A DNA stretch of 64,000 nucleotides from Methylomonas rapida. Its GTDB lineage: Bacteria; Pseudomonadota; Gammaproteobacteria; Methylococcales; Methylomonadaceae. A program made the translations under genes and the position numbers. Below, piece after piece: positions 19,153 to 60,040 of this stretch. The stretch's first letter is position 1. Each line of letters starts with the position of its first letter. The notes beneath the pieces are model-generated. The model saw only the letters and a program-made list of their open reading frames with translations, was not told the origin of the DNA and did not search any database. Location of the stretch: positions 4,382,001 through 4,446,000 of the forward strand of contig NZ_CP113517.1 of assembly GCF_024360925.2 (NCBI RefSeq). Direction: 5' to 3'.

Positions 19153-19547
19153 CCATTGAACCCTAGCGCAACGAGCACGACAATCAAGCCAATGGTTGCC
19201 GATATAGGAGTAATCTATTGGCCGCGACCTAAAATGGCAAGTCGGCTGTAGTGCGCAATATCCCTTAAAGGCGGCAGCCGGCCAATACCTGACAGTCGGG
19301 GTCACTATCCAATTTCAATGATTAAGGCATCCAGTGCCCCTGTCGGCTGTCCGGTATTCAGCGAGCAAATTGACATTATCACTGCCTCAATTCGGCAATT
19401 TGAGACATTCAAGATGCTAAAAATGTTAGTTGTAAATGGCAAGTTTTAACTTGATTAAGTATGCTGGCATCGCGGAAATATGCTAGTCTCTCGGCTATTG
19501 TGGCCGCTCATGGTCTAGGCTAGATAAGTTTGATGGGAGTACGTTTG
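19153..19547. other. Intergenic region downstream of mnmE
   Basis: About 395 bp without a supported gene. Short GC-rich fragments (around 19200-19350) look like degraded intergenic repeats; the last ~150 bp are AT-rich and probably hold the promoter of the accessory operon, but no consensus -35/-10 pair is convincing. I saw no attachment site or tRNA. Confidence 0.5.
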
Positions 19548-19901
19548 ATGAATGGCAGAGATTTTGATGATGAACAAGTAAGTCCAATACTTGAAGCGTT
19601 AAGAAACTGGGCAGGTACTCATCCCGCACCAGATCAACCATTTTTTATCATTATGGACGATGACGATGACGATGACGATGACGACGATCAGGATAATAAT
19701 TATCACGAAAGATACGATCATCGTAGCAGGAACATTACACCAAATCAGTTTTTGAATGCAGTGGAGGATCAAACTAAGTTTGGTTCCCGGTTCTTGAGGT
19801 TTATCTTCGCTCAGGCAAAGATTTACGACAGGCGTGCAGAGGATTTTATCTGGTCTGCGGTTGAAGCTAATAAGAGACCAAATATCGAACAGGAGAGTTA
19901 G
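19548..19901 (+). CDS. Acidic poly-aspartate protein, first gene of trypco2/caspase-like cluster
   Basis: A 117-residue protein I do not recognise. An N-terminal helix (VSPILEALRNWAGT) leads to a strand (PFFIIMD) and a run of 11 aspartates encoded by a GAC/GAT tandem tract, then an Asn/Tyr/His-rich linker, then a helical C-terminus (TPNQFLNAVEDQTKFGSRFL). I chose the ATG at 19548 because GGGAG sits eight bases upstream. The stop is 2 nt before the start of the peptidase gene, so the genes are probably translationally coupled. Poly-Asp could bind Ca2+ or serve as a cleavage or regulatory segment; that is inference. Confidence 0.72.
   Translation: MNGRDFDDEQVSPILEALRNWAGTHPAPDQPFFIIMDDDDDDDDDDDQDNNYHERYDHRSRNITPNQFLNAVEDQTKFGSRFLRFIFAQAKIYDRRAEDFIWSAVEANKRPNIEQES
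19656..19688 (+). repeat. In-frame GAC/GAT microsatellite coding for Asp11
   Basis: Eleven consecutive Asp codons, mostly alternating GAC GAT, form an imperfect hexanucleotide repeat inside the acidic protein gene. Slippage by whole repeat units would change the length of the Asp run without a frameshift. Confidence 0.8.
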
Positions 19902-19957
19902 TGATGCCCAGCTCTATACTTATTATAGCCACTTGCTATGATGTGGGTACATATTAC

Positions 19958-21148
19958 CAGGGCAATCGCGCTTTGTAGCACTTGCACGGGCAAGGGGTTT
20001 AGTATAGCGATTTTGCCTAATATCCCAGATGCTCCCAGATCCAACCCCCTATTTTGCTGACCTCACAGACCCGCGGCGAGAGGGCAAAAACAAACTCCAC
20101 AAACTCACGGATATCGTGATGATCGTCTTATGCGCAGTATTGAGCGGCATCGAGGATTGGGTCGGCATGGAAGAGTTTGCCGAAGAAAAAGAAGATTGGC
20201 TGCGGACCTTTTTGGAATTACCGAATGGAATTCCCTCGCACGATACCCTGAGTAATGTCTTGGGCCGCCTGAATCCCCAAGCGTTTGCCGAGACCTTTCA
20301 ACGTTGGGTGCAGGCGGCATTGCCAAGCCTTTCAGGACAGCAAGTCTGTTTGGACGGCAAGACCTTGCGCGGCAGCCGCGAAGGGGATAAGGCCGTGCAT
20401 TTGATGAGCGCCTTTGCGGCTGAAGCGCGTTGGGTGTTGGCGCAACAGGCGGTGGATGAGAAGACTAACGAAATCAAGGCGATCCCCGATTTATTGTCGA
20501 TGTTGGACATCAAAGGAGCTCTGATCTCGATCGATGCCATGGGTTGTCAAAAAGCCATTGCGAAAACCATCGTTACGGCGCAAGCGGATTACGTGTTGGC
20601 ACTGAAGGATAATCATCCGAACCTTTGCGAGGATGTCAGGTTGTGGCTGGATACTGAAAATGCCAACGACCGCTTACCGGTCTACGAAACCATCGACAAA
20701 GATCACGGTCGCCTGGAAATACGCCGTTACAGCTTGAGTAGCGAGATTGCTTGGTTGACGCAAAAACCTGACTGGGCCGGGCTACAAGCCATTGGTCGGG
20801 TTGAATCGATTCGCACCCTCGGTGACAAGACCTCGGTTGAGTGTCGCTACTATTTGTGTTCGTTTACGGATTTGCAGCGCTTTGCCGAAGGGGTACGGCA
20901 GCATTGGGCGATAGAAAATTCCCAGCACTGGGTGCTGGATGTGCAGTTTGGCGAAGATGCGAATCGCGCCAGAACAGATCATTCCGCCGAAAACTTGGCG
21001 TTGATGCGACGGATGGCACTCAATTTACTACGAAATAACGGACCTACTAAAGACAGCTTGAAGCGCCGCAAGTTGCGAGCATGTTTGAACGATAACTATC
21101 GCTTTAAATTACTCTTCGGAACATCTGCAACATAGCGCGATTGCCCTG
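19958..21148 (+). mobile_element. ISAs1-family insertion sequence, 1191 bp
   Basis: Complete IS with terminal inverted repeats: left end CAGGGCAATCGCGCT (19958-19972), right end the exact complement (21134-21148), with similarity continuing imperfectly inward. It is flanked by a 10-bp direct target duplication TACATATTAC (19948-19957 and 21149-21158), as expected for ISAs1-family transposition. It contains one transposase gene. The exact duplication suggests a recent insertion. Confidence 0.95.
20029..21135 (+). CDS. ISAs1-family transposase
   Basis: A 368-residue DDE transposase. The N-terminus has the family pattern DLTDPRREGKNKLHKLTDIV; the core has VCLDGKTLRGSREG (first Asp), LISIDAMGCQKAIA (second Asp), ALKDNHPNL, and the late HWAIENSQHWVLDVQFGEDA region carrying the catalytic Glu. 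The frame is intact, so the element may still be active. The stop codon overlaps the right inverted repeat. Confidence 0.96.
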   Translation: MLPDPTPYFADLTDPRREGKNKLHKLTDIVMIVLCAVLSGIEDWVGMEEFAEEKEDWLRTFLELPNGIPSHDTLSNVLGRLNPQAFAETFQRWVQAALPSLSGQQVCLDGKTLRGSREGDKAVHLMSAFAAEARWVLAQQAVDEKTNEIKAIPDLLSMLDIKGALISIDAMGCQKAIAKTIVTAQADYVLALKDNHPNLCEDVRLWLDTENANDRLPVYETIDKDHGRLEIRRYSLSSEIAWLTQKPDWAGLQAIGRVESIRTLGDKTSVECRYYLCSFTDLQRFAEGVRQHWAIENSQHWVLDVQFGEDANRARTDHSAENLALMRRMALNLLRNNGPTKDSLKRRKLRACLNDNYRFKLLFGTSAT

Positions 21149-21751
21149 TACATATTACACGCATTCATGGGCCAAAACTCTTCAAGAGGACTCGATGCGA
21201 AAAGGACACAATTGCATATTGCTGGATGCCGAATCTTTGTGCCATTCTGGATCGACTCTAAGAGAGGCAATCGAGCGAGTTGACTACGTAATATTTTATG
21301 GGCACGGCCTCCGGGATCAATGGACTGCGATGCCTTCGAGTTCTAGTGCGGGTGGTGTAGCAGAACGTCCATTGATCGACACTAATAATGTGAGCGTCCT
21401 TGATGGACGACAGGTTTATGCGGGGTGCTGTCATTCCCTGACCCAATTAGGTCAAAGTTTCGTAACGATATGTTCTGGCGAGTATGTCGGATATTCACAA
21501 CGATTTCAGTTTGAGACTACGAACCATCGAGATTTTAGCGCTGTCGTTAACACGTCTGTCATGGCCTATGTTGCAGGGGACTCCGCCAGCAAGGTTGCAA
21601 CAGCCTTAGCCAATGACTGGGATAGACTGCGTGACGATTTCGTTGCTGGTAGACTACGGACGCGACCAAATGCAATCATGGCTGCTCAATGTGCTGACGA
21701 TAATAGCCAACGTGTAGGAAGTTTACCTTAAGTTATATTAGGAGTAAGAGC

Positions 21752-22252
21752 ATGATCGACAAGATGGAAGAAACAGCAACTAGCATAGCACTGACGGATG
21801 TGGTGGATTCATTTCGAACGGCACTTGGGATTGTGAAGGCTCGAACGCGTGGAGATTTGAAAATCACTCTTACGAAAGTCGATTTGTGTCTAAAAGTCGA
21901 AAGTAAAACCGAAGCCAAAGCGGGAGGTAAATTCGTCTACTTTGTGCCAATTGAGGTTGGAGGAAGCCATGAGTCAACAAAGACACATCAACTCATACTG
22001 TCGCTTATCCCAAGCCCCGCAGCTGCTGATCTTGGAAAAGCGGAGGCCGAGGAATTGGCCGATGCAATTGTAGACCTTGCTGCTGCGGCTGTTGATATTA
22101 AGCAGCGTGTTGCAAAGGATTTCCAGCTTGACACCTTCAGCATTTCAGTCGATGTTGGTGTGTCCCGAGGGGGGAAGCTACAGGTCATCGTGGGAGGGGG
22201 GAAATCAACAGGAACATATCATAAAATCGACCTTTCATTTAGAACTCGGTGA
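21752..22252 (+). CDS. Trypco2-like domain protein
   Basis: A 166-residue protein resembling the trypsin-co-occurring domain 2 (trypco2) family. It has an N-terminal helix (SIALTDVVDSFRTALGIVKA), strands (DLKITLTKVDLCLKVES), a segment with lysine/glycine, and a strand preceded by a His (THQLILSLIPSP). It then has an Ala-rich helix and a second, basic beta-rich half. Trypco domains were described computationally next to trypsin-like and caspase-like peptidases in predicted conflict systems (Aravind group). TAGGAG precedes the ATG at 21752. The gene starts 20 nt after the interrupted peptidase gene. Confidence 0.68.
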   Translation: MIDKMEETATSIALTDVVDSFRTALGIVKARTRGDLKITLTKVDLCLKVESKTEAKAGGKFVYFVPIEVGGSHESTKTHQLILSLIPSPAAADLGKAEAEELADAIVDLAAAAVDIKQRVAKDFQLDTFSISVDVGVSRGGKLQVIVGGGKSTGTYHKIDLSFRTR

Positions 22253-22593
22253 GGAAATCGAGGTCATGGCGGTGGGGCGATACCACCACATCAACATCGG
22301 ATAACCAGTAATTGATCATCTGGATTGTAAGCGCCTGACCTCGCTACTTAGCCCATATATTGCGGTCGTTGGGTGATGCCAACAATGGCTGCTTTATAGA
22401 CCTCCAGTTCGCCGATTCTGGATTAGTATGACTGGCCGGTTCGGAGAATCGCGACTGGCAGCAACGGGTCGGTCTTTGTCAGTCAAGTCGCTACTGATAC
22501 CTATGACGAAAAATAACCAGTCCAGAAAAAGTTGGTTTGTCGGGGATAATTGTAGGTTGCAACAGTCAGGTCTTGGTGTCACCGGTTTTGGCG
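22253..22593. other. Intergenic region after trypco2 gene
   Basis: About 340 bp between the trypco2-like gene and the convergent META-domain gene. I see no gene, no clear terminator hairpin and no second IS end. Composition is mixed, with short fragments that could be decayed coding sequence. Confidence 0.5.
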
Positions 22594-23085
22594 TTATTTG
22601 AGATAAACCGCCTCAAACAGCAATATCGATTGATTTTGCTCGTCGTATAAAGTCAGTCTCTCGCCTTGTATTGAATATCGCCGGACTTTATTCAGTGCAT
22701 CAAGAAAAGTGCTTTCTAGCTCCATAGTCTCGGCGCACGCCATCCTGGTCGTTGCCAAATTTCTGAATTCCAAACGATCATTGTTCCGTTTGTATCCCCC
22801 CGAAAACCGATTACAGCCGGAAAAGCCATGGACATGGTTTTCCCCGCCGCCTGTAATCAGGCTGATCTCTTTCCCCCCGGCGTCCAGTGCTGCGGGCTTG
22901 CCATTCATTTCCAGGAGTTTCCAATACGTGTTGACCAGACTCGCATCGGGTTTACTGGCTTCTGCTTGCATGGGAGGTGTCGCCACATGGGCGGCATCGT
23001 TATTAGCTGCGCAACCAAACAGGGAAAACACGGGTAGGCAGGCAAAGACCAGAGCTTGTTTGTACCTCGGGCGATATGGCGTCAT
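22594..23085 (-). CDS. META-domain (HslJ-like) lipoprotein
   Basis: A 163-residue lipoprotein with lipobox SLFGC (Cys25) and one META domain: NTYWKLLEMNGKPA, HGFSGCNRFSGGYKRNNDRL, and TRMACAETMELESTFLDALN. HslJ in E. coli is an outer-membrane or periplasmic META protein tied to heat shock and novobiocin resistance. It starts 22 nt after the XRE regulator gene stop on the same strand, so the two are probably one operon. Confidence 0.87.
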   Translation of the reverse strand: MTPYRPRYKQALVFACLPVFSLFGCAANNDAAHVATPPMQAEASKPDASLVNTYWKLLEMNGKPAALDAGGKEISLITGGGENHVHGFSGCNRFSGGYKRNNDRLEFRNLATTRMACAETMELESTFLDALNKVRRYSIQGERLTLYDEQNQSILLFEAVYLK

Positions 23086-23107
23086 CTAAATTCTCCGGTT
23101 AAAAAAG

Positions 23108-23353
23108 CTATGGCCGTTTGTCCTCTTCAGGGAGCAAGTCGGTTACGCTGCAATTCAAGGCTTTGGCCAGCTTTCGCAAGGCTTCGACCGAAATGTTATG
23201 CGCCGTCCCATTCTCCAATTTGCTGATCATGGATTGGGTCACGCCGGAACGCTCCTCAAGCTCTTGTTGAGTAAAGCCAAGTTCTAGGCGTCTTTCCTTC
23301 AAGATATTGCCGACATGCATCAGATTCATGGGCATAATGAAAACCGTCGGCAT
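23108..23353 (-). CDS. XRE-family helix-turn-helix regulator
   Basis: An 81-residue DNA-binding protein that is almost only a Cro/C1-type HTH: LGFTQQELEERSGVTQSMIS then KLENGTAHNISVEALRKLAK. The tail DLLPEEDKRP is typical of small XRE repressors. The start is unsure: ATG 23353, 23335, 23329 and 23320 are in frame and none has a clear ribosome site. Because a TATAAT box covers 23352-23357 on this strand, 23329 (MNLMHVGNILKERR) is the likelier start. It probably represses itself through the palindrome just upstream. Confidence 0.88.
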   Translation of the reverse strand: MPTVFIMPMNLMHVGNILKERRLELGFTQQELEERSGVTQSMISKLENGTAHNISVEALRKLAKALNCSVTDLLPEEDKRP

Positions 23354-23355
23354 TA

Positions 23356-23371
23356 TATGAATTTATTCATA
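23356..23371. promoter_or_regulatory. Candidate XRE operator overlapping a -10 box
   Basis: A perfect inverted repeat TATGAAT-TT-ATTCATA lies directly upstream of the XRE gene and overlaps a TATAAT on the minus strand (23352-23357). The position is ideal for autorepression of the XRE-META operon. Confidence 0.55.
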
Positions 23372-23503
23372 ACCAAGGGAATAGCCGCCGAAGCGACTCT
23401 GTTACAGGTTTACTTGATTACCAAGAGGAAATACGGGGGGATGCCGCAGCCCTAAAGATCCCGTCATAATGGTAGTTTTACGACACAACTCAAGCCAACA
23501 GAG

Positions 23504-23686
23504 ATGAAAGAAACGATTGTCTCGTTAGTCGCGTTTACAGAAGAGTTATCGGAATTGATTACCTGCTTGGTGAAACAAATTCCCTATGACCATCGACGTC
23601 AGGCGATGGAAGATGTTGTGCAAACCTTGCGGGAAGGGAAATCGCGAAAAGCCGAGGACCGGCTCGCCACGAACAGCTTGACCTAA
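23504..23686 (+). CDS. Small hypothetical helical protein
   Basis: A 60-residue predicted protein that I do not recognise. It is mostly helical, with a leucine/valine-rich N-terminal half (VSLVAFTEELSELITCLVKQ) and a charged C-terminal half. Only a weak purine-rich site precedes the ATG. It lies alone between divergent XRE and the DnaA-box region. Confidence 0.45.
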   Translation: MKETIVSLVAFTEELSELITCLVKQIPYDHRRQAMEDVVQTLREGKSRKAEDRLATNSLT

Positions 23687-23689
23687 TGG

Positions 23690-24118
23690 CATTGACTCCT
23701 TAAAACCGCGACCGCTCAAAAATAGCGATCAAACCCACGCATTTTTGGTATTGATTTTCCCGCCGGCTTACAGCTTATGCACAATGCGCTCAACCGTGAC
23801 CATCAGTGCAAAAACGCCGCAGACACCGAAGAAAATACATGTCACAAAAACAATTATATGATTGTTTTATATAGCATGATTTTTAATAAAGGCACTCTAA
23901 ATCCTGATCGGCGCAGTGGAATCGACAAAGATGCTCAACAACTTTAACCAGCTTACCCACAGAGTTATCCACAGAATTTGCGATTGATCCCGTTTTTATC
24001 CGTTTGCAATATATGCCACCAAGGTAAAGCGCGTTATCTCGTCAAGGTTTGCTAGAATGCCGGCAAGCTTGCACTTTATGCCACTGCCCACCATCCACCG
24101 CTTAAAAAAGGAGGCTTC
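23690..24118. other. Non-coding region with DnaA boxes and an AT-rich stretch
   Basis: About 430 bp with no gene. On the + strand it holds TTATGCACA (23775-23783), TTACCCACA (23953-23961, one mismatch) and a perfect TTATCCACA (23965-23973). Between them 23845-23890 is only about 15% G+C. This resembles a replication-origin or DnaA-regulated element and is discussed in the findings. Confidence 0.5.
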
Positions 24119-24298
24119 ATGTCGACCGTGGAAAGCATCGTTCTTGGCGCCCTGGCCATTTTATTGCTCTTCTGGATGCAGCCCGGCATAAAGGCCGCGA
24201 TGACGCGAAGCAAACAAGCTACCGCCGACTGGCCGAGCTTGATCGTGCCTATCGGCATGGTTGTAATATTCGTGCTTTTTCTAATAGCAATGGTTTGA
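24119..24298 (+). CDS. Small two-helix membrane protein
   Basis: A 59-residue protein. Two hydrophobic segments (VLGALAILLLFWM and LIVPIGMVVIFVLFLIAMV) flank a short basic loop (KAAMTRSKQATADW). A strong AAAAAAGGAGG ribosome site lies four to five bases upstream of the ATG, and the stop is one base before darP, so it is very likely translated. Family unknown. Confidence 0.72.
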   Translation: MSTVESIVLGALAILLLFWMQPGIKAAMTRSKQATADWPSLIVPIGMVVIFVLFLIAMV

Positions 24299-24299
24299 A

Positions 24300-24893
24300 A
24301 TGATCGAAGAAGAATATTTTCCAGAAGACGAGGACGAGGAAGCCGAGTATTACGCGATACGTCCGAATAAAACGCAGATAAAAAAAGAAATTGCGGCAAT
24401 TTTCGCAATGGCCGAGGAAATTTCCGAGCTGGCCCCCGCGCAAATCGCGGAATTCGAATTGCCCGAGAAGATTGTATCCGCGTTGTTGGATGCGGGCAAA
24501 ATGGGAAAAAACGCCGCACGCAAGCGTTTATTGAAATTCATCACCGCCCAACTGAGAGCGCTGGACACCGAGGCCGTGCAAGAAAAACTGGCCAGAATGA
24601 AAAATAAAAGCGCTCACGCCGTCAGGGAGCATCACCAGGCCGAGCGTTGGCGTGATCGATTGCTCTCGGATACCGGCAATCAGCAGTTAACGCTATTGAT
24701 CGGCGAATATCCCGATGCGGACAGCCAGCACTTGCGCCAACTGCAGCGAAATGCCCAGAAAGAAACCAAGGAGGGCAAACCGCCCAAGTCGGCCCGCCTG
24801 TTATACAAATATCTAAAAGACGTGATTACAGCTCAAGCAGGCCATGAGGCCACTTATGCAGACGAGGAAATGGATAGCGACGAAGAGCAATAA
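24300..24893 (+). CDS. darP: Ribosome-associated protein DarP (YjgA, DUF615)
   Basis: A 197-residue acidic-then-basic protein. The core KTQIKKEIAAIFAMAEEISE ... GKMGKNAARKRLLKFITAQL ... NAQKETKEGKPPKSARLLYK matches the YjgA family, which helps late 50S assembly in E. coli. Both ends are very acidic here. It immediately follows the small membrane protein gene. Confidence 0.93.
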   Translation: MIEEEYFPEDEDEEAEYYAIRPNKTQIKKEIAAIFAMAEEISELAPAQIAEFELPEKIVSALLDAGKMGKNAARKRLLKFITAQLRALDTEAVQEKLARMKNKSAHAVREHHQAERWRDRLLSDTGNQQLTLLIGEYPDADSQHLRQLQRNAQKETKEGKPPKSARLLYKYLKDVITAQAGHEATYADEEMDSDEEQ

Positions 24894-24912
24894 TCAGGCC
24901 TCATCCAGATCA

Positions 24913-24947
24913 GGCATTTGCCCCGAATTTGCCCAAAAGCAAATGCC
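24913..24947. terminator. Hairpin between convergent darP and mtgA
   Basis: A perfect 9-bp inverted repeat GGCATTTGC / GCAAATGCC with a 17-nt loop lies 20 nt after darP. No strong T-tract follows, so termination is only probable. Confidence 0.4.
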
Positions 24948-24966
24948 GGGGCGGATGGCAATCCGT

Positions 24967-25704
24967 TTAAAAAGCCAAATTATGCATTTGCCGCAAAATC
25001 CAGCTTTGGCGGCGCAGTAAATACGCCGAAGGACGGTCGGCTTTCAAAATCTTCGGATTCGGTAAGGTAGCCGCGAGCAACGCAGCCTGGCTGGCGGAAA
25101 GTCGCTGGGCGGAAATGCCGAAATAATGCCGGCTGGCGGCTTCGATGCCGTATAAATGGTCACCGAATTCGGCAATATTCAGATACATCTCCAAAATTCT
25201 CGCCTTGCTCCACAGCGTTTCAATCAAGAACGTAAACCAAACTTCCAAAGCCTTACGGCCAAAATTTCTCGCCGGACTCAAAAACAAGTTTTTCGCCACC
25301 TGTTGACTTATCGTGCTGGCGCCGCGCATTTTGCCGCCATGCGAATTGTGCTTGTACGCCTTGTAAATCGCATCGAAATCAAAACCGTGATGCTGATAGA
25401 AACGCTGATCCTCGGCCGCGATCACGGCCATAAAGGCATGTTTGGAAATATGGTTTCGGTTCATCCAACGCTGATCTATCTCCATATAACCATTGCCCGC
25501 AACCAAATCGTCAATATGCTGATGCAGCATGAAGGCAGATGTCGGCGCCGGTAAAAAACGCAACACGCCGACCAGCATCACGGAACCGGCGACCAATGCC
25601 AACGCGGCATAAGCCAGAAATTGCTTGATACGTTTTGAAAACGAAAGCGAATTTCCAAAATTTGCCGGTGATTGCCGATAGCGGGAAGGACGAGAGCGAC
25701 TCAA
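24967..25704 (-). CDS. mtgA: Monofunctional biosynthetic peptidoglycan transglycosylase
   Basis: A GT51 glycosyltransferase that polymerises lipid II. The 245-residue protein has one N-terminal membrane helix (about 27-50), the catalytic motif EDQRFYQHHGFDFDAI, then RGASTISQQVAKNLFLSP and RILEMYLNIAEFG. The only start that keeps the full leader is a TTG at 25704 without a clear ribosome site, so the exact N-terminus is unsure. Confidence 0.94.
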   Translation of the reverse strand: MSRSRPSRYRQSPANFGNSLSFSKRIKQFLAYAALALVAGSVMLVGVLRFLPAPTSAFMLHQHIDDLVAGNGYMEIDQRWMNRNHISKHAFMAVIAAEDQRFYQHHGFDFDAIYKAYKHNSHGGKMRGASTISQQVAKNLFLSPARNFGRKALEVWFTFLIETLWSKARILEMYLNIAEFGDHLYGIEAASRHYFGISAQRLSASQAALLAATLPNPKILKADRPSAYLLRRQSWILRQMHNLAF

Positions 25705-26188
25705 TGCAGTAAAGGAGTTGAAAATATGGACCCATTATCCCTGATTCAACAGTTCATGGGTAAATTGCAGTCCTGTTCTACCTAACACGTCAAATCACGC
25801 TACTCATGAGGCAAATAACACAGATTATTTACCAGGGACCTGGCATTTTGTCCTGTAAATCCAGATGAATCAGCCATTAAACAAGTTGGCACGAGTTTCG
25901 CTTATAGTATTGCAGGTGTCAGGGATTTTAAGTTCTCTCCCCCGTGAACATGGAAAATATAGATGCCAAGGAATAACCCGGATATTCGCATAGGGAATTT
26001 GTGTTTATCCGGGCAAGGACGACCCACTCGAGCGGCCATGCCGGCTTGCTCATGCGCATGCCGCGTAATCAGAACATCTTCCAGTCTATTTGCTTCCAAG
26101 CCATTCTCGACGATTCCGCTTTTCTTTCGCCAAGCTTGCGCTGTATGATCCCGGCAACGAATGCCCTCCACGAATCAACGGTCGCAAA
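25705..26188. other. Intergenic region between divergent mtgA and mepA
   Basis: About 480 bp with no convincing gene. It includes a 19-codon ORF (25726-25785) preceded by AAAGGAG, and open but characterless frames on both strands from about 25900. The frame that extends mepA upstream to 26090 has no signal peptide character and is not used. Confidence 0.5.
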
Positions 26189-27049
26189 ATGTCTTCATCG
26201 CGCAACATCGTCACTCCCGCCTTCTTCGTCTTATCGCTCTTCGCCTGCGCCAACGGATTTGCCGGCGAAACCGCGAAAGTTTGGGCGGCATTTACCACGC
26301 CGACAAACAGCCAGGTCGCTCAAAGCATAGGCAACTATACCAATGGCTGCATCGGCGGCGCCATGGCCCTGCCTCTGTTCGGCAAGGGTTATCAGGTCAT
26401 GCGCGTTTCGCGCAACCGCTATTTTGGTCACCCGTCGCTCGTTCAATTCATCGAGCGGCTCGGCCAAACAAGCGCCGACCAGCAGCTTGGCACACTATTG
26501 ATCGGCGACCTGGGACAACCGCGCGGCGGCCCAACCCCAAGCGGACACCGCAGCCACCAGACCGGACTGGATGTCGATATCTGGTTCATGCTGTCAAAAC
26601 ATGCCGATAATCAGATGCTGACGGAAAACGAACGTGAGACCTGGGCTGCAGCGTCGATGCTGGATGCGCATTCCGGCGGCGTGGATTATCGGCAATGGAC
26701 TCTTGCGCACGCAAAAATCCTCCAGATTGCCGCAAGCCAGCCGGAAGTGGAGCGTATTTTTGTCAATCCCCACATCAAACGGGAATTATGCAGAAACGAT
26801 GTGGGCCATTCCCGCCTATGGCTGAGAAAAATTCGCCCTTGGTGGAAACATGACGATCATTTTCATGTGCGCCTGAAGTGCCCCGATGACAATCCCTATT
26901 GCGCCGCTCAAGAGCCGTTACCGGGTGGAGATGGTTGCGATGCCAGCCTGGATTGGTGGTTTACACCGGATGCCGCCGCGCCCAAGCCCGCCAAGCCGGC
27001 GCCTCCGCCAAAGCTGCCTGCCTTGTGCGAACAAGTCATGCAGCAGTGA
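26189..27049 (+). CDS. mepA: Penicillin-insensitive murein endopeptidase
   Basis: A periplasmic LAS-family zinc peptidase that cuts D-Ala-mDAP cross-links in peptidoglycan. The 286-residue protein has a signal peptide (to about residue 26), then GHRSHQTGLDVDIWFM (zinc His and Asp), RNDVGHSRLWLRKIRP and HDDHFHVRLKCP (zinc His). Conserved Cys residues for disulphides are present. The ATG at 26189 starts directly before the signal peptide. It is convergent, with a 20-nt gap, with the TPR protein gene. Confidence 0.95.
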   Translation: MSSSRNIVTPAFFVLSLFACANGFAGETAKVWAAFTTPTNSQVAQSIGNYTNGCIGGAMALPLFGKGYQVMRVSRNRYFGHPSLVQFIERLGQTSADQQLGTLLIGDLGQPRGGPTPSGHRSHQTGLDVDIWFMLSKHADNQMLTENERETWAAASMLDAHSGGVDYRQWTLAHAKILQIAASQPEVERIFVNPHIKRELCRNDVGHSRLWLRKIRPWWKHDDHFHVRLKCPDDNPYCAAQEPLPGGDGCDASLDWWFTPDAAAPKPAKPAPPPKLPALCEQVMQQ

Positions 27050-27069
27050 CGAGATTAGCCGCGCATGGG

Positions 27070-27765
27070 TCAGTCTGGACTGGCCGATGCCGTGGTAAAC
27101 AATGCCTGAAATTTATTCTTACCGGCGTTGGACTTGCGCTGTTGCGTATTGGCCAACGCCAATTTGGCCTCATTTTGCAACTGGGTATCGGCAAAGACCT
27201 GCTGTTTCCGCACCGGCGCCTGCAAGGCTTTTTGAAAAAAGGCTTCGGCCTCGGCCTCGCGACCCTGCCGCAGCAAAAAGTCCGCATAAAAATAATTCGC
27301 GTCAATGCCGTTGGGATTGATTTTCAAGCTGGTCTTTAAAAGCCGCTCCGCCACTTCGTCATCCCCAAACGACACCGGCCAACCCGGCACCATGTAATAA
27401 AGCGTGCCCAGCGTCACGTAAGCGGCCCCATCCAGGGCTTTTGGATTGATTTTAATCGCGTCTTCCAGCAATTTTTTCGCTTTTTCCAGTGTAGAAAGCG
27501 CGGTCAGCGAGGATTCAAATGCCGCATTGGTGGCCATGATCGTGGCTTGCCAAATTTTGGGTTCCGCCGCATTGGGATGGCGCGCAACCAAATCCGCCGC
27601 CTGCCTCAATAAGGCAGGGTAGGTTTGCTTTTGTCGCGACTCGTCCGGTTGATAATAAGCCTCGGCCCACGCGCTTTCGATGCTGGAAATGGACGTATCC
27701 AGCTCGGAAGCCCTCAGTGGCGACATGAAAAGTAACAAAAAAACAACAACAGTGGCTCTATTCAT
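27070..27765 (-). CDS. TPR-repeat secreted protein
   Basis: A 231-residue protein with a signal peptide (VVVFLLLFMSPLRA) and TPR-like helices: AEPKIWQATIMATNAAF, AKKLLEDAIKINPKALDGAA, RLLKTSLKINPNGIDANYFY and ADFLLRQGREAEAEAFFQKAL. It resembles small periplasmic TPR proteins related to the TRAP-associated TatT group. An alternative ATG at 27789 would add 8 residues; neither has a clear ribosome site. Confidence 0.75.
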   Translation of the reverse strand: MNRATVVVFLLLFMSPLRASELDTSISSIESAWAEAYYQPDESRQKQTYPALLRQAADLVARHPNAAEPKIWQATIMATNAAFESSLTALSTLEKAKKLLEDAIKINPKALDGAAYVTLGTLYYMVPGWPVSFGDDEVAERLLKTSLKINPNGIDANYFYADFLLRQGREAEAEAFFQKALQAPVRKQQVFADTQLQNEAKLALANTQQRKSNAGKNKFQALFTTASASPD

Positions 27766-27819
27766 ACAGAAAATATAGTCCATTGTCATTCGGTTTTCAA
27801 GATGTGCGTTAAATTATTG

Positions 27820-28293
27820 TTATTTATTCCAATCTTTGTAGGGGCTTTTAGTCAAATTATTGTTGTAGTAGCGCAAATCGTGTGTAACTTCTTCGCCAAT
27901 CCAGTCCGGTTTTGCAAAGGATTCACCAATTTGCGACAACTCGACCTCAGCCACGATCAAACCGGCGTTGTCTCCCATGAACTCGTCGATCTCCCAGACA
28001 TGACCCGCGTGATGAACGAAGTGACGCATTTTTTCAACCAACGGTTTATGACACAACTCATCCAGAATCGCATGGGCGTCGCTCAGCGGGATTTCGTACT
28101 CGAATTCCTGCCTATGCGTGCCGATGGTAGCGCTTTTGATGTTCAGCCAGGCGTGACTATCCGAAATGCGCACCCGAATAGAACTCAACGGACTACTGCT
28201 GAGATACCCCTGTTTGTAATGCACGGAATGCTCGATTTCGTCGCGCCAGTTGTCGTTTGCCAGCAAAAACTTATGTTCAACTTCCAAAGCCAT
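27820..28293 (-). CDS. CYTH-domain protein (inorganic triphosphatase / class IV cyclase-like)
   Basis: A 157-residue single-domain CYTH (triphosphate tunnel metalloenzyme) protein. The N-terminal signature ExExK is present as EVEHK, with later RVRISDSHAWLNIKSA, EFEYEIP and EVELSQIGESF supplying the tunnel acids and bases. Similar stand-alone bacterial CYTH proteins hydrolyse tripolyphosphate (as characterised in Nitrosomonas europaea); a few make cAMP. Triphosphatase is more likely here. It is divergent from sodB. Confidence 0.88.
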   Translation of the reverse strand: MALEVEHKFLLANDNWRDEIEHSVHYKQGYLSSSPLSSIRVRISDSHAWLNIKSATIGTHRQEFEYEIPLSDAHAILDELCHKPLVEKMRHFVHHAGHVWEIDEFMGDNAGLIVAEVELSQIGESFAKPDWIGEEVTHDLRYYNNNLTKSPYKDWNK

Positions 28294-28335
28294 TGGATTT
28301 TCTCCAGAAAATAGTGATTTGCAATAATTCTTTAT

Positions 28336-28341
28336 TATAAT
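28336..28341 (+). promoter_or_regulatory. Candidate -10 box upstream of sodB
   Basis: A perfect TATAAT, within TTTATTATAATGC, lies 70 bp upstream of the sodB start in the sodB/CYTH gap. No good -35 lies at 17 bp, so the call rests on the -10 alone. Confidence 0.4.
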
Positions 28342-28411
28342 GCTTGGTTATTAGGGCAATGGCGAGAGCCTGCGCGCTAAAGTTGCTGTTCATTCACTCT
28401 GGAGAAATAAG

Positions 28412-28993
28412 ATGACTTTCGAATTACCTGCATTACCGTACGCAAAAGACGCACTGGCACCGCATATTTCCGCCGAAACCATCGAGTACCACTACGGCAA
28501 ACACCATCAAACCTATGTCACCAACCTGAACAATCTGGTTCCCGGCACCGAATTTGAAGGCCTGTCCCTGGAAGACATCGTCAAAAAATCCTCCGGCGGT
28601 ATTTTCAACAATGCGGCGCAAGTCTGGAACCACACCTTCTACTGGAACTGCCTGTCTCCAAACGGCGGCGGCGCGCCAACCGGCGGCCTGGCCAACGCCA
28701 TCGACAGAACGTTCGGTTCCTTCGACAAATTCAAGGAAGAATTCACCAAATGCGCGGTCACCACTTTCGGCTCAGGCTGGGCCTGGCTGGTAAAAAATCC
28801 CAATGGCACACTGGAACTGGTCAGCACCAGCAACGCCGGCTGCCCACTGACCGCAGGTCAAACCCCGATTTTGACTTGTGACGTTTGGGAACACGCGTAT
28901 TACATCGATTTCCGCAATCTGCGCCCTAAATATCTGGAAGCTTTCTGGGCCTTGGTCAACTGGGATTTCGCCAGCGCCAATTACGAGGCTTAA
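28412..28993 (+). CDS. sodB: Iron superoxide dismutase
   Basis: A 193-residue Fe-type SOD that dismutates superoxide in the cytoplasm. Metal-binding and signature regions are visible: [35 protein letters not shown] and [13 protein letters not shown]. The GGIFNNAAQ pattern favours iron over manganese. AGGAG-like GGAGAAATAAG precedes the ATG. A strong terminator follows. Confidence 0.97.
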
Positions 28994-29010
28994 TTAGCTA
29001 AGCCCCAGCA

Positions 29011-29048
29011 AAAAAGGCCGGCATGATAAAAATCATGCCGGCCTTTTT
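29011..29048. terminator. Strong bidirectional terminator after sodB
   Basis: A perfect 12-bp GC-rich stem GGCCGGCATGAT / ATCATGCCGGCC with an AAAA loop is flanked by A5 upstream and T5 downstream. It would end sodB on + and lspA on -. Confidence 0.9.
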
Positions 29049-29093
29049 GATGCTTGCCGCAAACACATGTGCAAGCCAGCTTTCAGCTAGAAT

Positions 29094-29573
29094 TTACTGC
29101 AACACGTCAGCTTCCTTGCGACCCACACCAAAACTTTCCAACACCATCAAGCCCACACCGATACAAATCGCCGAATCGGCGATATTGAATGCGGGCCAAT
29201 GCCAGTCTTTATAGTAGACATCGAGGAAATCGATCACATAACCATAGGCCACCCGGTCGATCAGATTGCCGATGGCACCGCCCAATACCAGCGACAACGC
29301 AACCGCCAACAAGGTTTCGTGCTTCTGCAATCGGGCCAGCCAAACACCGATGATGCCACTCATGACCAACGCCAGACCGGCAAACAACCAACGCTGCCAA
29401 CCGCCGGCCTTGGCCAGAAAGCTAAACGCGGCGCCGGTATTGTGGGCATAGGTCAGATTGAAATACGGCAGCAGCGGAATCGAGTCATAAAGCTGCATCG
29501 TGGCATCGATTGCCAGCTTGCTGGCCTGATCCAGAATCAGCACCAGCAAGGATAACCACAACCACTTAAGCAT
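29094..29573 (-). CDS. lspA: Lipoprotein signal peptidase
   Basis: A 159-residue four-helix inner-membrane aspartyl protease that removes lipoprotein signal peptides. Catalytic regions [18 protein letters not shown] and [12 protein letters not shown] carry the two Asp residues. The start ATG at 29573 overlaps the last 8 nt of ileS, the usual coupled arrangement. The upstream extension in the same frame is ileS shadow. Confidence 0.96.
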
Positions 29574-32397
29574 AATGCCGGGTCTCGCCGCTGCCGGCCA
29601 CGTTTTCCACGCAGCGCCCGCACAATTCCGGATGCTCGGCATGCTCGCCGACGTCGTAACGTTGATGCCAGCAACGCACGCATTTTTTGTGCTCGGATAC
29701 CAGCACCTTCAATTTGACGCCTTCCAGTTCGGTGGCAACCGCATCGTCCGGGCAGAATTGCATGTCGGCCACGCCGGCATTGGAGGTAATGAAGACGAAA
29801 TGCAGTTCGCTGGCTAGTTTGTTGAGCTCGGCCGCATAACTTTCGCCGCAATACAACTCGACTTCGGCATTCAGGGAGGCGCCAATCGCGCCCTGGCTGC
29901 GCAATTGCTCCAACTCCTTGCTGACGACCGTGCGCACGGCCATGACTTTTTCCCAGGTTTTTCCGTTGATGGCGGCATCGGCATCCAATGGAAACAAGCC
30001 CTCGTACCAGGTTTCCAAAAATACCGATTCGCTGCGCTGCCCCGGAATGGCTTGCCAGATTTCATCGGCGGTATAACTGATGATGGGCGCCAGCCAGCGC
30101 ACCATGGATTCGATGACGTGATGCATCGCGGTTTGCGCCGACCGCCGCGCCAGACAATCTTCCTTGGCGGTGTATTGCCTGTCCTTGATGATGTCCAGGT
30201 AAAAGCCGCCCAAATCGATGCTGCAGAAATTCAGTACTTTTTGGTAAATGACCTGGAATTGATAATCGCTGTATGCGGCCTTGATCTCTTCCTGCAATTG
30301 CCAGGCCTTGTCGACCACCCAGCGATCCAGAGCCAGTAAATCGGCTTTATCGACCGCATGTCGTGCCGGCTCGAACCCATGCAAATTTGATAGCAGGAAA
30401 CGCGCGGTATTACGTACACGACGATAAGCGTCGGAAGTGCGTTTCAAGATTTCGTCGGATACCGACATTTCGTAGCGATAATCGCTGCCAGCCACCCACA
30501 AACGTAACACGTCCGCACCCAGTGATTTCATCACCGTTTGCGGCAACACCACGTTGCCTTTGGATTTGGACATTTTTTTGCCCTCGGCATCGACGGTGAA
30601 GCCGTGTGTCAACACTTCCTTGTAAGGCGCAACGTCGTTCATCGCCACTGACGCCAGAAGCGAAGATTGGAACCAGCCGCGATGCTGATCCGAGCCTTCC
30701 AGATACAAATCTGCCGGGAAGCGCAGTTGTTCGCGGCGCTCGAGTACCGCGCCATGCGTTACCCCGGAATCGAACCAGACATCCAAGGTATCACTGACTT
30801 TTTCGTAATGCTCCGCGTCGGCACCAATCAGTTCGGCCGCATCCAGTTCGAACCAGGCGTCGATGCCCTGCTGCTCGATGCGTTTGGCCACCTGCTCGAT
30901 CAACTCGGGCGTTCTGGGATGCAATTCACCGGTTTCCTTATGCACAAAGAATGCAATCGGTACACCCCAGGTGCGTTGACGGGAGATACACCAATCGGGA
31001 CGGTTGACTATCATGGCTTCGATACGCGCCTGCCCCCAATCCGGCACCCAGTCGACGCGCTTGACCTCGTTCAACGCGGTATCGCGCAAGCCGTTTTTCT
31101 CCATCGCAATGAACCATTGCGGGGTGGCACGGAAGATGATCGGGGTTTTATGCCGCCAGCAATGCGGATAACTGTGCAACAAGGCATGATGATGAACCAG
31201 CTTGCCGCGCTCGCGCAGCACTTCCAGCACCTTGTCATTGGCACTGAACACATGCAGGCCGGCGAACAATTCGGTATTCGGCAGAAACACGCCGTTGCTG
31301 CCGACCGGATTATCCACCGGCAGGTTGTATTTCATGCCGACCACATAATCTTCCTGGCCATGGCCGGGAGCGGTATGCACCGCGCCGGTACCGGCATCGG
31401 TGGTGACGTGTTCCCCCAGGATGACAGGCACTTGCCGGTCGTAGAAAGGATGTTGCAGCATTTGGCCTTCCAGCGCGCTGCCCTTGCAATAGCCCAAAAC
31501 ATGATGCTCTCCGATGCCGTAACGCACCACGGCATCCTTCAACAAGGCTTCGGCCAACACCAGGCGTTCGGCCTGGCCGTCGATTTCGCATTGCACCACG
31601 GCGTATTCCAGCTCGGGATTCAACGCCACGGCCTGATTGGCCGGCAAGGTCCACGGCGTAGTGGTCCAGATGACCACCGAGAGCGGGCCTTGCCCCTCGT
31701 GCTCCGGCGCATGGTGGCAGCGAGCCATGAAGGCATGCTCATCGACGACTTGAAAGCGCACATCGATGGCCGGCGAATGCTTGTCTTCGTATTCGACTTC
31801 CGCCTCGGCCAACGCGGAACCGCAATCGGTACACCAATGCACCGGCTTCGCACCCTTGCTGAGATGGCCTTTGGCGGCGATTTTGCCCAGCGATCGGACG
31901 ATGTCGGCCTCGAAGGCAAAATCCATCGTCAAATACGGATTATCCCAATCGCCCAGCACGCCCAGACGGATGAATTCCTCTTTTTGAATGTTGACTTGTT
32001 TTTTGGCGTAGGCGCGGCATTCTTTACGAAATTCCGCCGGACTGACTTTGACCCCGGCCTTGCCGACATTTTTTTCCACCATCAATTCGATCGGCAAACC
32101 ATGGCAATCCCAGCCCGGCACATAGGGCGCATCGAAACCGGCCAAGGTTTTGGATTTGATGATGATGTCCTTCAATACCTTGTTGACAGCGTGACCGATA
32201 TGAATCGCGCCGTTGGCATAAGGGGGCCCATCGTGCAGCACAAATTTTGGCCGTCCGGCGCAATGTTCGCGGATTTTTTGATACAGCCGGTTTTCGTTCC
32301 ACTTTTTCAGCATCTCGGGTTCGCGCTGAGCCAGATTGGCTTTCATCGCAAACTCGGTTTTGGGAAGGTTGAGGGTAGTTTTATAATCCGTGGTCAT
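29566..32397 (-). CDS. ileS: Isoleucyl-tRNA synthetase
   Basis: A 943-residue class I aminoacyl-tRNA synthetase. HIGH-type motif [17 protein letters not shown] near residue 60, the editing domain in the middle ([19 protein letters not shown]), KKMSKSKGN near residue 605, an anticodon-binding helical region, and a C-terminal zinc finger (CVRCWHQR ... CGRC). It is upstream of and overlapping lspA. Confidence 0.98.
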
Positions 32398-32644
32398 GAT
32401 GGTATCGTGAGCGCTGCATGCAATCGTAAGTGAGAGTAGGTCGACTAAAGCCGAGCAACCAATCCGTAAGAGTTGCTTCGCATAGCCGTACGATTCTAAA
32501 TTCCGAGACTAAAAGCCGGATTCTATCACCAACTGCTTCAGCCTATAAACCTAAAGCTTTGGCCGGCTTGTGGCGCAAAAACCCATTTACAATCAATCCA
32601 GATTGGACAACTGTATTTCATCGCATTCAAGTTACGGAATTATC

Positions 32645-33232
32645 ATGAAAAGCCCAATTCTTCTGATCTGTCTAAGCTTTCCCGTGGCTAGCTGGGCCGG
32701 TGTTTATAAATGCACGGATGCCACGGGCAACACTCATTACCAATCGTCCCCCTGCACAGACGAAAGCAAAGCCGTGCAAATCAATACCAAGACAGGCAGT
32801 AGAGTCGATTTAACCGAAATAGAAAGCCGAAAAACCTTGGAAAACGAACAAAAAAAGCAGTTTGAGGCACAGAAACAGGCGGAAGAACACGTCCGACTCG
32901 ATGCCATAGCCCAGCGCAAGCACGCGGCCATACAGGAACACGAACTGACTCAGGCCATGATCAAGCAAAACCCCAACCAATTTTCCGCCTATGCGATTCC
33001 GCCCTACGACCCTGATAAATTGCCGAACTCGGTAAAACCGTTCGAGGAGCGATTGCCTGAAATAGAGAGATTCCGCCGCCTCGCGGCGCAAAAGGCGTTG
33101 GCAAGCGGAAAATGCCAACGTGTGGAAGCCGATGAATTGAACGCCAAAAGCACCCAGGAACAACTGATATTCCTGATCAATTGCAGCTCTGGCGCCAGCT
33201 ATTATTTTAACGAATCCGAATTGACAGAATGA
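32645..33232 (+). CDS. DUF4124-domain secreted protein
   Basis: A 195-residue protein with a signal peptide (ILLICLSFPVASWA) followed by the DUF4124 motif GVYKCTDATGNTHYQSSPC. A charged coiled coil (about 55-100) precedes a C-terminal domain with Cys residues (KCQRV, INCSS). DUF4124 occurs in many periplasmic proteins of unknown function. The ATG at 32645 is the only one that precedes the signal peptide directly. It overlaps the SDR gene start by 4 nt (ATGA). Confidence 0.85.
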   Translation: MKSPILLICLSFPVASWAGVYKCTDATGNTHYQSSPCTDESKAVQINTKTGSRVDLTEIESRKTLENEQKKQFEAQKQAEEHVRLDAIAQRKHAAIQEHELTQAMIKQNPNQFSAYAIPPYDPDKLPNSVKPFEERLPEIERFRRLAAQKALASGKCQRVEADELNAKSTQEQLIFLINCSSGASYYFNESELTE

Positions 33233-34065
33233 ATACAAATCCTCAAACCGTTTTCATCACCGGCTGCTCGTCCGGCATCGGCTATGTCACCGCCCAATTA
33301 TTGAAAGATCGAGGCCATCGTGTCATTTGCTCGGCCCGCAAGCAAACCGACGTCGAGCGCTTGATCGCCGAAGGCTTCGAGTGTTTACAGCTGGACTTGG
33401 CCGACTCCGCCAGCATCCAGCACGCCGTAAAACAGCTGAGCGAAATGACCGATGGCAAAATCGATGCCTTGTTCAATAACGGCGCCTTTGGTCAGCCCGG
33501 CGCGGTGGAAGATTTGAGTCGCGAAGCACTTAGAAACCAATTCGAAACCAATTTCTTCGGCACGCATGAATTGACCAATCTACTGATTCCGCTGATGCGC
33601 CGGCAAGGCCATGGCCGCATACTCTATAACAGTTCGGTGCTGGGATTCGTCGCGATGAAGTTCCGCGGCGCCTATAACGCCAGCAAGTTTGCGCTGGAAG
33701 GCCTGGCGGACACCTTGCGCCTGGAATTGCGCGGCTCCGGTCTCCACATCGTCTTGATAGAACCCGGCCCCATCGAAAGCCGTTTTCGCGCCAACGCATT
33801 CGCAATGTATCAAAAGTACATCGATCCCAACCGCAGTTGCCATAAGGCGACTTATCAGGCCATGGAAACACGATTGCAAAAACCGGGGCCGGCCGCGCCC
33901 TTCACGTTGCCGGCAACGGCGGTGGCTGAAAAAGTGATACATGCGCTCGAATCGAAACGTCCTAAGGCGCGCTATCGGGTTACCGTTCCGACATATTTGT
34001 TTGCCGGGCTGAAACGCCTGTTGCCAACGACCTGGCTGGACAGGATTTTGGCCAGCGTGGCTTGA
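33229..34065 (+). CDS. Short-chain dehydrogenase/reductase
   Basis: A 278-residue classical SDR. Cofactor loop ITGCSSGIGYVTAQLL, NNG at the end of strand 4 (LFNNGAFGQPG), catalytic Ser in LYNSSVLGF and YNASKFALEG (Tyr and Lys). The substrate cannot be inferred. Translation is coupled to the DUF4124 gene through ATGA. Confidence 0.93.
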   Translation: MNTNPQTVFITGCSSGIGYVTAQLLKDRGHRVICSARKQTDVERLIAEGFECLQLDLADSASIQHAVKQLSEMTDGKIDALFNNGAFGQPGAVEDLSREALRNQFETNFFGTHELTNLLIPLMRRQGHGRILYNSSVLGFVAMKFRGAYNASKFALEGLADTLRLELRGSGLHIVLIEPGPIESRFRANAFAMYQKYIDPNRSCHKATYQAMETRLQKPGPAAPFTLPATAVAEKVIHALESKRPKARYRVTVPTYLFAGLKRLLPTTWLDRILASVA

Positions 34066-34222
34066 ATCTCAATCTTGAATGTTCGGCATAAAAACAGCCG
34101 AATTGAACCACAAACATGCTATGAAACCATGGGAAACATGTTATTATGACCAGTGACATGTGGCACGCTTAAGTATTAAGGGTCATGTGTTCCTTATAAA
34201 AACAACTGCGAGGTTTCCATAC

Positions 34223-34609
34223 ATGAAAATTTTAAAAAGTGCTGTTATCGCTTGCTCACTGACCGTTGCCATGGGCGCATTCTCAACCGCAGCGGTTGCA
34301 GAATCCGATCCAGGTAGAATTACCTATGCCCCTGTCGACGCCATCAATGGGATTTCTGAGCGCGTAGCTGCTGCGGAAGCCGCTATCAATAACGGCGCTT
34401 CAGGCGAAGAAGTTGCGACTTTGATCAAAAAAGCCACCGATTTCAGCAAAGAATTGAATGCCAACGACAAAGTCGACAGAGCAAATTCAAAAGCCAAAGC
34501 TCATTTGAAAGAAGGCATCAAATCAGCTAAAGCGGGCAACATGGAAGAGACCAAAGCCCACATCAATGCAGCCAAAGAAATCCTTGCGACCCTGAAAGGC
34601 TTGCTGTAA
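34223..34609 (+). CDS. Small secreted helical protein of unknown function
   Basis: A 128-residue protein with a clear signal peptide (MGAFSTAAVA-ESD). The mature part is low-complexity alpha-helical, rich in Ala, Lys and Glu (SERVAAAEAAINNGASGEEV, then KAKAHLKEGIKSAKAGN and HINAAKEILATLKGLL). It resembles small periplasmic four-helix proteins; no catalytic residues are visible. It stands alone with its own strong terminator, which suggests an abundant mono-cistronic transcript. The ATG at 34223 is the family-like start. Confidence 0.82.
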   Translation: MKILKSAVIACSLTVAMGAFSTAAVAESDPGRITYAPVDAINGISERVAAAEAAINNGASGEEVATLIKKATDFSKELNANDKVDRANSKAKAHLKEGIKSAKAGNMEETKAHINAAKEILATLKGLL

Positions 34610-34627
34610 ATCTCTGGCCAAAAACAG

Positions 34628-34657
34628 AAAAGGGAGCTTACAGCTCCCTTTTTTTTT
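34628..34657 (+). terminator. Rho-independent terminator
   Basis: Stem AAAAGGGAGCT / AGCTCCCTTTT with a TAC loop is followed by an uninterrupted T-run to 34657. It is placed 20 nt after the small secreted protein gene. Confidence 0.92.
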
Positions 34658-34685
34658 ACCCCAGGCCCACCAAAAAAACACGATA

Positions 34686-35513
34686 TCACAGACAAAAATC
34701 CGTGTTTTCCAGTTGTTTTTCCAGCCAAACCAACAATTCCCTGCTGCTCCTCGGTTTTTCCTGCCCCCAGGCCATTGCCTCCTCGCCCCGCAACAACCGC
34801 CAACGCAACAACAAAGCCCGTAGCCGCAGCGAAGCAGTCAGGGAAAAATGAAACCGCTTCAGCAGCTGTTCGTACAAAGCCAAATCCAATACCGGAATAC
34901 GCTGCCGCAGACAGTTTAATTGTTCCAATATCGCTTCAATGGCATCGATACGCGCCGCCATCCAAGTCTCCACCCTCGTTTCATCGATGGCCGCAATCGA
35001 GGTCTCGGCGTTATCGGAAACTATTTTGACGACGTGAATCAATTCGCTCGAAGCACATTTGACCGCAAGCTCATAAAAACCGCTGGCTTCCATGTCGTAC
35101 AAGGCGTCTTCGACATAGTCCACCTGCGGTTTTGCGTGCGTAGTCAGAGGCGCGGTTTGACAGGGAGGAATGAATGGAAATTGCGGAAAAAAGCCGCGCC
35201 CTGTTTCGGCGTCGACAACCTTATCGGCCAGACAAATCGTTCCCGCCGGATAACGCGGGTGACCGGCGATGCCCACGTTGAGCAATATCGGCAATTCCGC
35301 ATAATCAGGGAATGAAGCCAGCGTATAGCCGACCGCGCCAGCCATGGCCTGCTTGCCAACGCCGCTAATCGTCAAAACCCTGTCCTTGCCGAAATAGATG
35401 GCGAACGGCTGCCCCTTGCCCGACAATTTTTTTAATTGCCAAGCCCGAATCAACGGCCGGGCTTCGCAAGCCAGCGCACAAAAAACAAAAACGGTAGGCG
35501 TAATCTCAGACAC
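34686..35513 (-). CDS. Nucleoside phosphorylase / nucleosidase family protein
   Basis: A 275-residue protein of the PNP/UDP phosphorylase superfamily. VGIAGHPRYPAGTICLADKV and the signature YDMEASGFYELA are clear; the N-terminus FVFCALACEARPLI is the first strand. The last ~100 residues are helical and Arg/Leu-rich, not typical of MTA/SAH nucleosidase. It starts with GTG and lies 84 nt downstream of the UPF0182 gene on the same strand. The substrate is unknown. Confidence 0.82.
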   Translation of the reverse strand: MSEITPTVFVFCALACEARPLIRAWQLKKLSGKGQPFAIYFGKDRVLTISGVGKQAMAGAVGYTLASFPDYAELPILLNVGIAGHPRYPAGTICLADKVVDAETGRGFFPQFPFIPPCQTAPLTTHAKPQVDYVEDALYDMEASGFYELAVKCASSELIHVVKIVSDNAETSIAAIDETRVETWMAARIDAIEAILEQLNCLRQRIPVLDLALYEQLLKRFHFSLTASLRLRALLLRWRLLRGEEAMAWGQEKPRSSRELLVWLEKQLENTDFCL

Positions 35514-35597
35514 TGGCGAATACCATATTGCTTCGACGCGCTTTCATGCCCAATTCGAACTCGCCGCTCCTACCCGTAGTTGAAATTCATGCATGGC

Positions 35598-59567: not shown

Positions 59568-59575
59568 TCGAAAGC

Positions 59576-60040
59576 ATGGAACCCTTACCCTTAAGAGACA
59601 TACATCTCCCAGAATCCATCGACTGGTGGCCGCCGGCACCCGGCTGGTGGCTTTTACCCATCGTACTGGTCCTGCTGATCGCGGGACTGCGTTACCTTTA
59701 CAAACGCTTGACGCAAAAAACCGCGTTGAAAAGCGCGCAAGCACTGCTGAAAAGCCTACGCTCAAACCACGCCGACCAATTACAAACACTGACCGAACTG
59801 TCCGCCTTGTTGCGGCGCACGGCCATCAGCATCGACCAAAGCGGCGACGTAGCGGGTTTGCATGGTCAGGCCTGGCTGGAATATCTGGATCGCGCAATGC
59901 CGGACCGCCCGTTCAGCCAAGGCACGGGGCGCTGCCTGGCGGATGCGCATTATCGCCCCGGCATTGGCGAAGAGCTGGATCTGACCGCGTTGTTTGCGCT
60001 GTGCGAACGCTGGCTGAAGCAGCAGGACAAAAAAGCATGA
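59576..60040 (+). CDS. DUF4381-domain membrane protein
   Basis: A 154-residue protein with one membrane helix (WWLLPIVLVLLIAGLRYLY) and the DUF4381 layout (LRDIHLPESIDWWPPAPGWW, LSALLRRTAI, LAALCERWLKQ-like end). Such proteins sit between DUF58 and VWA genes in MoxR operons. The ATG at 59576 starts 8 nt after the signalling gene; the stop overlaps the next start. Confidence 0.88.
   Translation: MEPLPLRDIHLPESIDWWPPAPGWWLLPIVLVLLIAGLRYLYKRLTQKTALKSAQALLKSLRSNHADQLQTLTELSALLRRTAISIDQSGDVAGLHGQAWLEYLDRAMPDRPFSQGTGRCLADAHYRPGIGEELDLTALFALCERWLKQQDKKA

Follow-up and report, generated by a model that had tools for sequence, protein, structure and literature searches.

Proteases with the caspase fold execute cell death in animals, and several bacterial antiphage systems employ them as well. 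Close to the locus described here are the Trypco2-trypsin pairs of the VMAP/MoxR-vWA and related conflict systems, in which a small Trypco2 protein is encoded beside a peptidase gene; according to the available part of their description (PMC7159879), Trypco1 and Trypco2 were named for their trypsin-like peptidase neighbours, and the caspase-like domains of VMAP proteins go with alpha/beta-hydrolase. Bacterial orthocaspases and pseudo-orthocaspases combine a caspase fold and a His-Cys dyad with presumably inactive sister forms (PMC6426788, in the portion available), and the nuclease-protease pairs of bacterial immunity, as far as the accessible text of PMC12799240 goes, join a protease gene to a second gene in conflict loci. 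Here, we describe three closely spaced same-strand genes, recognised as such in a first-pass annotation, at positions 19548-22252 of a 64,000-nucleotide stretch of Methylomonas rapida DNA (contig NZ_CP113517.1, 4,382,001 to 4,446,000; hereafter the window). They lie behind mnmE and encode a 117-residue protein that we call X, a peptidase whose gene is split by an insertion sequence, and a Trypco2 protein. The locus is probably the remnant of a compact protease module that was acquired horizontally.

We assign an even chance to the reading that this was a protease-effector conflict module. The peptidase, with the candidate dyad His67/Cys109, would be the effector; X would bind it and either hold it inactive or place it, and the Trypco2 protein would be the adaptor coupling the X-peptidase pair to a trigger or substrate. 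Activation, for which an invading phage or element is the probable cause, would lead the peptidase to cleave host proteins or switch on another protein and so stop the cell. The anatomy of the locus, the predicted fold, the dyad pattern and the linkage of X to the peptidase are established by sequence or by model; the function is suggested by the Trypco2 domain, the fold neighbours and the patchy distribution.

Predicted fold and candidate dyad of the peptidase family

A protein search with the window peptidase piece returned 96 homologues at E ≤ 0.001, which belong to a family of single-domain proteins (about 208 residues when intact) without a name in the curated libraries searched. The motifs FYGHG and YAGCC, pointed out in the first-pass annotation, are both present in the window peptidase and conserved across the family. 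The clan-CD (caspase/hemoglobinase) fold that it proposed is likewise predicted by a model made for the intact, 95% identical homologue P0001 rather than for the window protein: after re-alignment (VIA-align), 48 of the 50 matches listed carry the names of clan-CD peptidases, and the remaining two are the anti-sigma factor DdvA. In the model, H67 directly follows core strand 61-65 and C108/C109 follow strand 103-107, which places a His and a Cys at core-strand ends as expected of clan CD. Separase, legumain and MALT1, all specific processing enzymes, are among the closest folds, and the first Foldseek rows also hold flavodoxin fusions and quinone reductases. In BFVD, two proteins matched at E ≤ 0.001, led by an uncharacterised Myoviridae protein (2.8e-05); clostripain-like and metacaspase-like viral proteins stood lower in the list.

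Which residues would be catalytic was judged from an alignment of 83 members. F64, G66, G68, C108 and S111 do not vary, 78 members have both H67 and C109, and the remaining five (P0055, P0060, P0067, P0068 and P0082) have Asn and Ser instead. The 13 homologues outside the alignment do not change the picture: 12 are H/C/C and one is a fragment without the His position, so that all 96 comprise 90 H/C/C, five N/C/S and this fragment. Because exactly these two residues were lost jointly in five members, H67 and C109 are likely the catalytic pair, with Cys109 rather than Cys108 as the nucleophile; the CHS-type motif carried by metacaspases would align with C109-x-S111. The five members form one clade (support 0.954), and the loss therefore counts as a single event. 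Since C108 is moreover the invariant Cys, the assignment is an indication, not proof. Cys108 as the nucleophile, favoured by its presence in 83/83 members, was set aside in view of the joint loss of H67 and C109; of the Cys108/109 pair named in the first-pass annotation, the dyad pattern with His67 thus retains Cys109. By sequence, the Asn/Ser clade likely consists of pseudo-enzymes and in this resembles the pseudo-orthocaspases (PMC6426788). With its candidate dyad, a natural dyad-loss branch and a small linked partner, the family would offer a minimal setting for studying the silencing and release of such proteases.

Described caspase-like groups differ from this family in several respects. 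Unlike orthocaspases, none of the 83 members matches Peptidase_C14, which is absent from the 20 Pfam families that any of them matches at E ≤ 1, and the pseudo-forms carry Asn/Ser, whereas Tyr/Ser prevails in pseudo-orthocaspases according to the available part of PMC6426788. Peptidase_C25, the family of the gingipains, gives weak matches in six of 83 (best E 0.012); the sole C25 score seen, that of P0061, is 11.2 bits and lies below the cut-off of 23, and the single domain of about 208 residues also sets the family apart from gingipains. Other weak matches are PknH_C in six members (best E 0.0012) and Peptidase_C50 in one (E 0.33), all given as E values, as a comparison of score with cut-off was displayed for the first member alone, which has none. 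In contrast to the CHAT-type effectors SAVED-CHAT and Craspase (TPR-CHAT), the peptidase has no SAVED or TPR part, shows no sequence match to them and has a different partner. A separate Peptidase_C14 match (E 2.6e-25) occurs elsewhere in the genome, in a 791-residue open frame (G000:C1:852327-852998, L001).

The partner protein X and the Trypco2 neighbour

A protein search with X returned X alone, and its relative P0097 was recognised from the N-terminus of a match in the peptidase search. P0097 starts with about 90 extra residues ahead of its peptidase part, of which residues 8-87 match X 5-107 (pairwise E 1e-14). At this second, divergent locus, X thus stands directly in front of the peptidase, in one reading frame. 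Over its peptidase part, P0097 shares 95% identity with P0043, which stands alone, but departs from it by local frame slips and in the tail; it is therefore not established that X and the peptidase are fused there, and P0097 may represent either a genuine fusion or two neighbouring genes joined in the reading. X matched nothing over the cut-off in Pfam, including any nuclease family, and nothing in PADLOC, NCBIfam or PHROGs, which distinguishes the pair from the nuclease-protease systems, where a trypsin-like protease goes with a nuclease proenzyme (PMC12799240, in the part available). The low-confidence model of X, built from an alignment of two sequences, is mainly helical, with four helices and a two-strand hairpin (mean predicted local distance difference test score, pLDDT, 69.9); Foldseek gave only two matches for it, both with E above 8, and thus no notable PDB fold match.

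The 11 consecutive Asp residues of X, which had caught the attention of the earlier annotation, are the only run of at least six Asp in the six frames of the window. The run is a perfect GACGAT repeat of 4.8 copies and is placed by the model between the predicted hairpin strands 32-35 and 60-63. It is absent from P0097, the only X relative found, and when the two are aligned, a gap of 23 residues takes in the run plus the next 12 residues. The Asp run is most plausibly the product of replication slippage in a predicted surface loop of X, not a working part, and could still have some effect as an acidic loop. The idea that it serves as a Ca2+ binder or defining feature was rejected as the main function, because the run is a simple-sequence insert missing from the only homologue, which leaves Ca2+ binding nothing to rest on.

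The third gene product was correctly called trypco2-like: it matches PF19631 with E 3e-12 and 47.1 bits (gathering cut-off 24.2), and its N-terminal half alone reaches 40 bits. A profile search of the order found Trypco2 in 10 of 201 genomes, with 12 matches in total, among which the window protein scored lowest (39.3 bits). It carries an additional C-terminal region of about 75 residues that is missing from all nine of the 11 other Trypco2 proteins that were aligned. When the whole protein was scanned, this region (residues ~88-166) very weakly matched Trypco1 at E 0.035 and Pepco at E 0.094; when it was cut out, Pepco remained at E 0.033 and the Trypco1 match was gone. A whole-genome search with Trypco1 found nothing, and a second domain in this region is so far not supported.

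All 11 other Trypco2 matches in the order have a large same-strand open reading frame (ORF) downstream (at least 339 residues, most of them open at the stretch end), although at locus L007 the Trypco2 frame itself is absent from the ORF list. Ten of these ORFs were scanned (all but that of L011): eight match Trypsin_2 at E ≤ 0.001, four of them over the cut-off, and two have no match within that E limit. One trypsin-like neighbour (L005:1817-3226) also has an iSTAND domain (PF19995, E 2e-15). In the window, the Trypco2 gene is not beside a trypsin-like peptidase but is flanked by the clan-CD gene and a META-domain gene. Because eight of the 10 scanned ORFs are trypsin-like, this pairing is unusual, yet it is not without parallel, since Trypco2 also occurs at loci that hold caspase-like CHAT or TIR domains, as stated in the available part of PMC10907252. 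Here, then, a Trypco2 domain accompanies a peptidase that is not of the trypsin-like kind for which the domain was named. It further differs from the Trypco2-trypsin pairs, as far as PMC7159879 is available, in that the model assigns the peptidase to clan CD, the Trypco2 gene lies downstream instead of upstream, and the C-terminal region is extra. Of the earlier statement that trypco domains stand beside trypsin- and caspase-like peptidases, the trypsin-like part agrees with that source, whereas its caspase-like domains are those of VMAP proteins. No scanned neighbour of the trio is a MoxR, vWA or VMAP protein, with no search having been aimed at VMAP.

Distribution and possible function

Searches of 237 genomes of the taxonomic family, 301 of the order, 369 of the class and 398 of the phylum found the peptidase in this genome and no other; these sets overlap, those of order, class and phylum are samples, and the order was searched with the smaller profile A1. 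X was confined to its own genome among 349 of the phylum. The members named include, besides this genome, one Bryobacteraceae and one Baltobacteraceae assembly. Short-pattern scans, which leave absence unproven, found no relative in genome contigs (profiles A2 and A4) or in viral contigs (A1, A2, A3 and the Trypco2 protein); plasmid and phage searches found no relative either. In 10/10 congeners, the DNA after mnmE has no blastn match to window 19153-36000 except where the match to the flank runs over by at most 19 bases; the stretch of L021 extends no more than about 340 bases beyond the gene, and three further stretches extend 3 to 4 kb. The most economical account of how the locus was acquired is transfer into a variable spot. 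Literature searches (clan CD, anti-phage, caspase-like, CHAT, trypsin-like) gave no title or abstract opening among the matches listed that names the family, which is apparently rare and undescribed.

Several points weigh against a conflict function. None of the three window proteins matches a PADLOC 2023 model, and the 83 family members gave only two single weak matches (E 0.0023 and 0.003). The trio lies outside any defence-gene cluster, with mnmE and yidC upstream and META, HTH_3, DarP and transglycosylase genes as the four scanned downstream. No PDB sequence matches the peptidase at an E value below 0.31, its invariant Cys is C108 and not C109, and the dyad loss is one event; X has been seen at just two loci, and its model is of low confidence and without a fold match. 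No member has known activity, toxicity or phage protection. The proposal of a three-gene system stands in part: X and the peptidase are linked at the second locus (P0097), but the Trypco2 gene was seen with both only here. This would accord with a toxin-antitoxin-like pair of a protease toxin and its inhibitor X, an unrelated Trypco2 gene having landed next to them in the same variable spot. Of the linkages among the three genes, only that between X and the peptidase recurs at a second locus, and the Trypsin_2 neighbours elsewhere in the order make the pairing here unusual. However, only 20 bases separate the peptidase end from the Trypco2 gene, which shares its strand and has an AGGAG site of its own, suggesting one operon, and we regard such a pair as rather unlikely.

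The resemblance to separase, legumain and MALT1, the lack of matching defence models and the housekeeping neighbours could also point to a housekeeping or signalling peptidase that processes a dedicated substrate X, or has X as its chaperone, and is no conflict effector. Such a role appears improbable, as no other genome in the family, order, class and phylum sets has the peptidase, a Trypco2 gene lies next to it, and one branch lost both presumed catalytic residues. That same loss, together with the flavodoxin fusions and quinone reductases found by Foldseek, would suit a clan-CD-like or flavodoxin-like fold that serves as a binding or pseudo-enzyme scaffold. With the His and both Cys kept right behind two core strands in 78 of 83 members and clan-CD peptidases predominating after re-alignment, we consider a non-peptidase very unlikely. 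Within the conflict-module reading, it is possible, if doubtful, that the family, scattered thinly across distant bacteria, forms a compact module class of its own, in which X as a new regulatory domain, beside the peptidase or fused in front, would control it, a Trypco adaptor would have been recruited from trypsin-based systems, and the inactive clade would act as decoy or regulator.

Locus layout and the insertion element

The features of the locus are compiled in Table 1. The peptidase start codon lies two bases past the X stop codon, and the gene is cut after 18 codons and resumes beyond the insert. Its transposase belongs to the ISAs1 family (NCBIfam NF033564, E 8.3e-118), both element ends read CAGGGCAATCGCGCT, and the element is flanked by the perfect duplication TACATATTAC. 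Because 10 of its 14 matches in this genome, including this copy, are identical over all 1191 bp, the insertion into the peptidase gene is probably recent. The module should be dead in this genome, since the insertion parts the enzyme's first strand from the remainder.

Table 1. Features of the X-peptidase-Trypco2 locus in window coordinates
Feature	Position	Strand	Basis
X, small partner protein, 117 residues	19548..19901	+	ORF; homologous to P0097 residues 8-87
Eleven Asp codons in X	19656..19688	+	GACGAT microsatellite, 4.8 perfect copies at 19656-19684
Peptidase gene, 5' piece, 18 codons	19904..19957	+	Sequence; resembles start of homologue P0001
Target-site duplication, left copy, 10 bp	19948..19957	+	Sequence
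ISAs1-family element	19958..21148	+	Transposase 20029-21135; 1191 bp
Target-site duplication, right copy, 10 bp	21149..21158	+	Sequence
Peptidase gene, 3' remainder, with His67 and Cys108/Cys109 (P0001 numbering)	21150..21731	+	96 homologues; P0001 fold
Trypco2 protein, 166 residues, extra C-terminal region of ~75 residues	21752..22252	+	PF19631

The window contains no tRNAs and no Rfam families at gathering score, and a promoter and terminator scan gave counts about equal to those in shuffled sequence. No near-identical copy of the insertion element was found in the plasmid collection. The ten identical full-length ISAs1-family copies in this genome probably reflect a recent transposition burst. 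About 30 kb from the trio, the window also encodes an AAA_3 (MoxR-like) ATPase (52687-53673) and two VWA-domain proteins (59509-61023 and 61014-62840), one of them with TPR repeats, which probably form a common Bat-type cluster.
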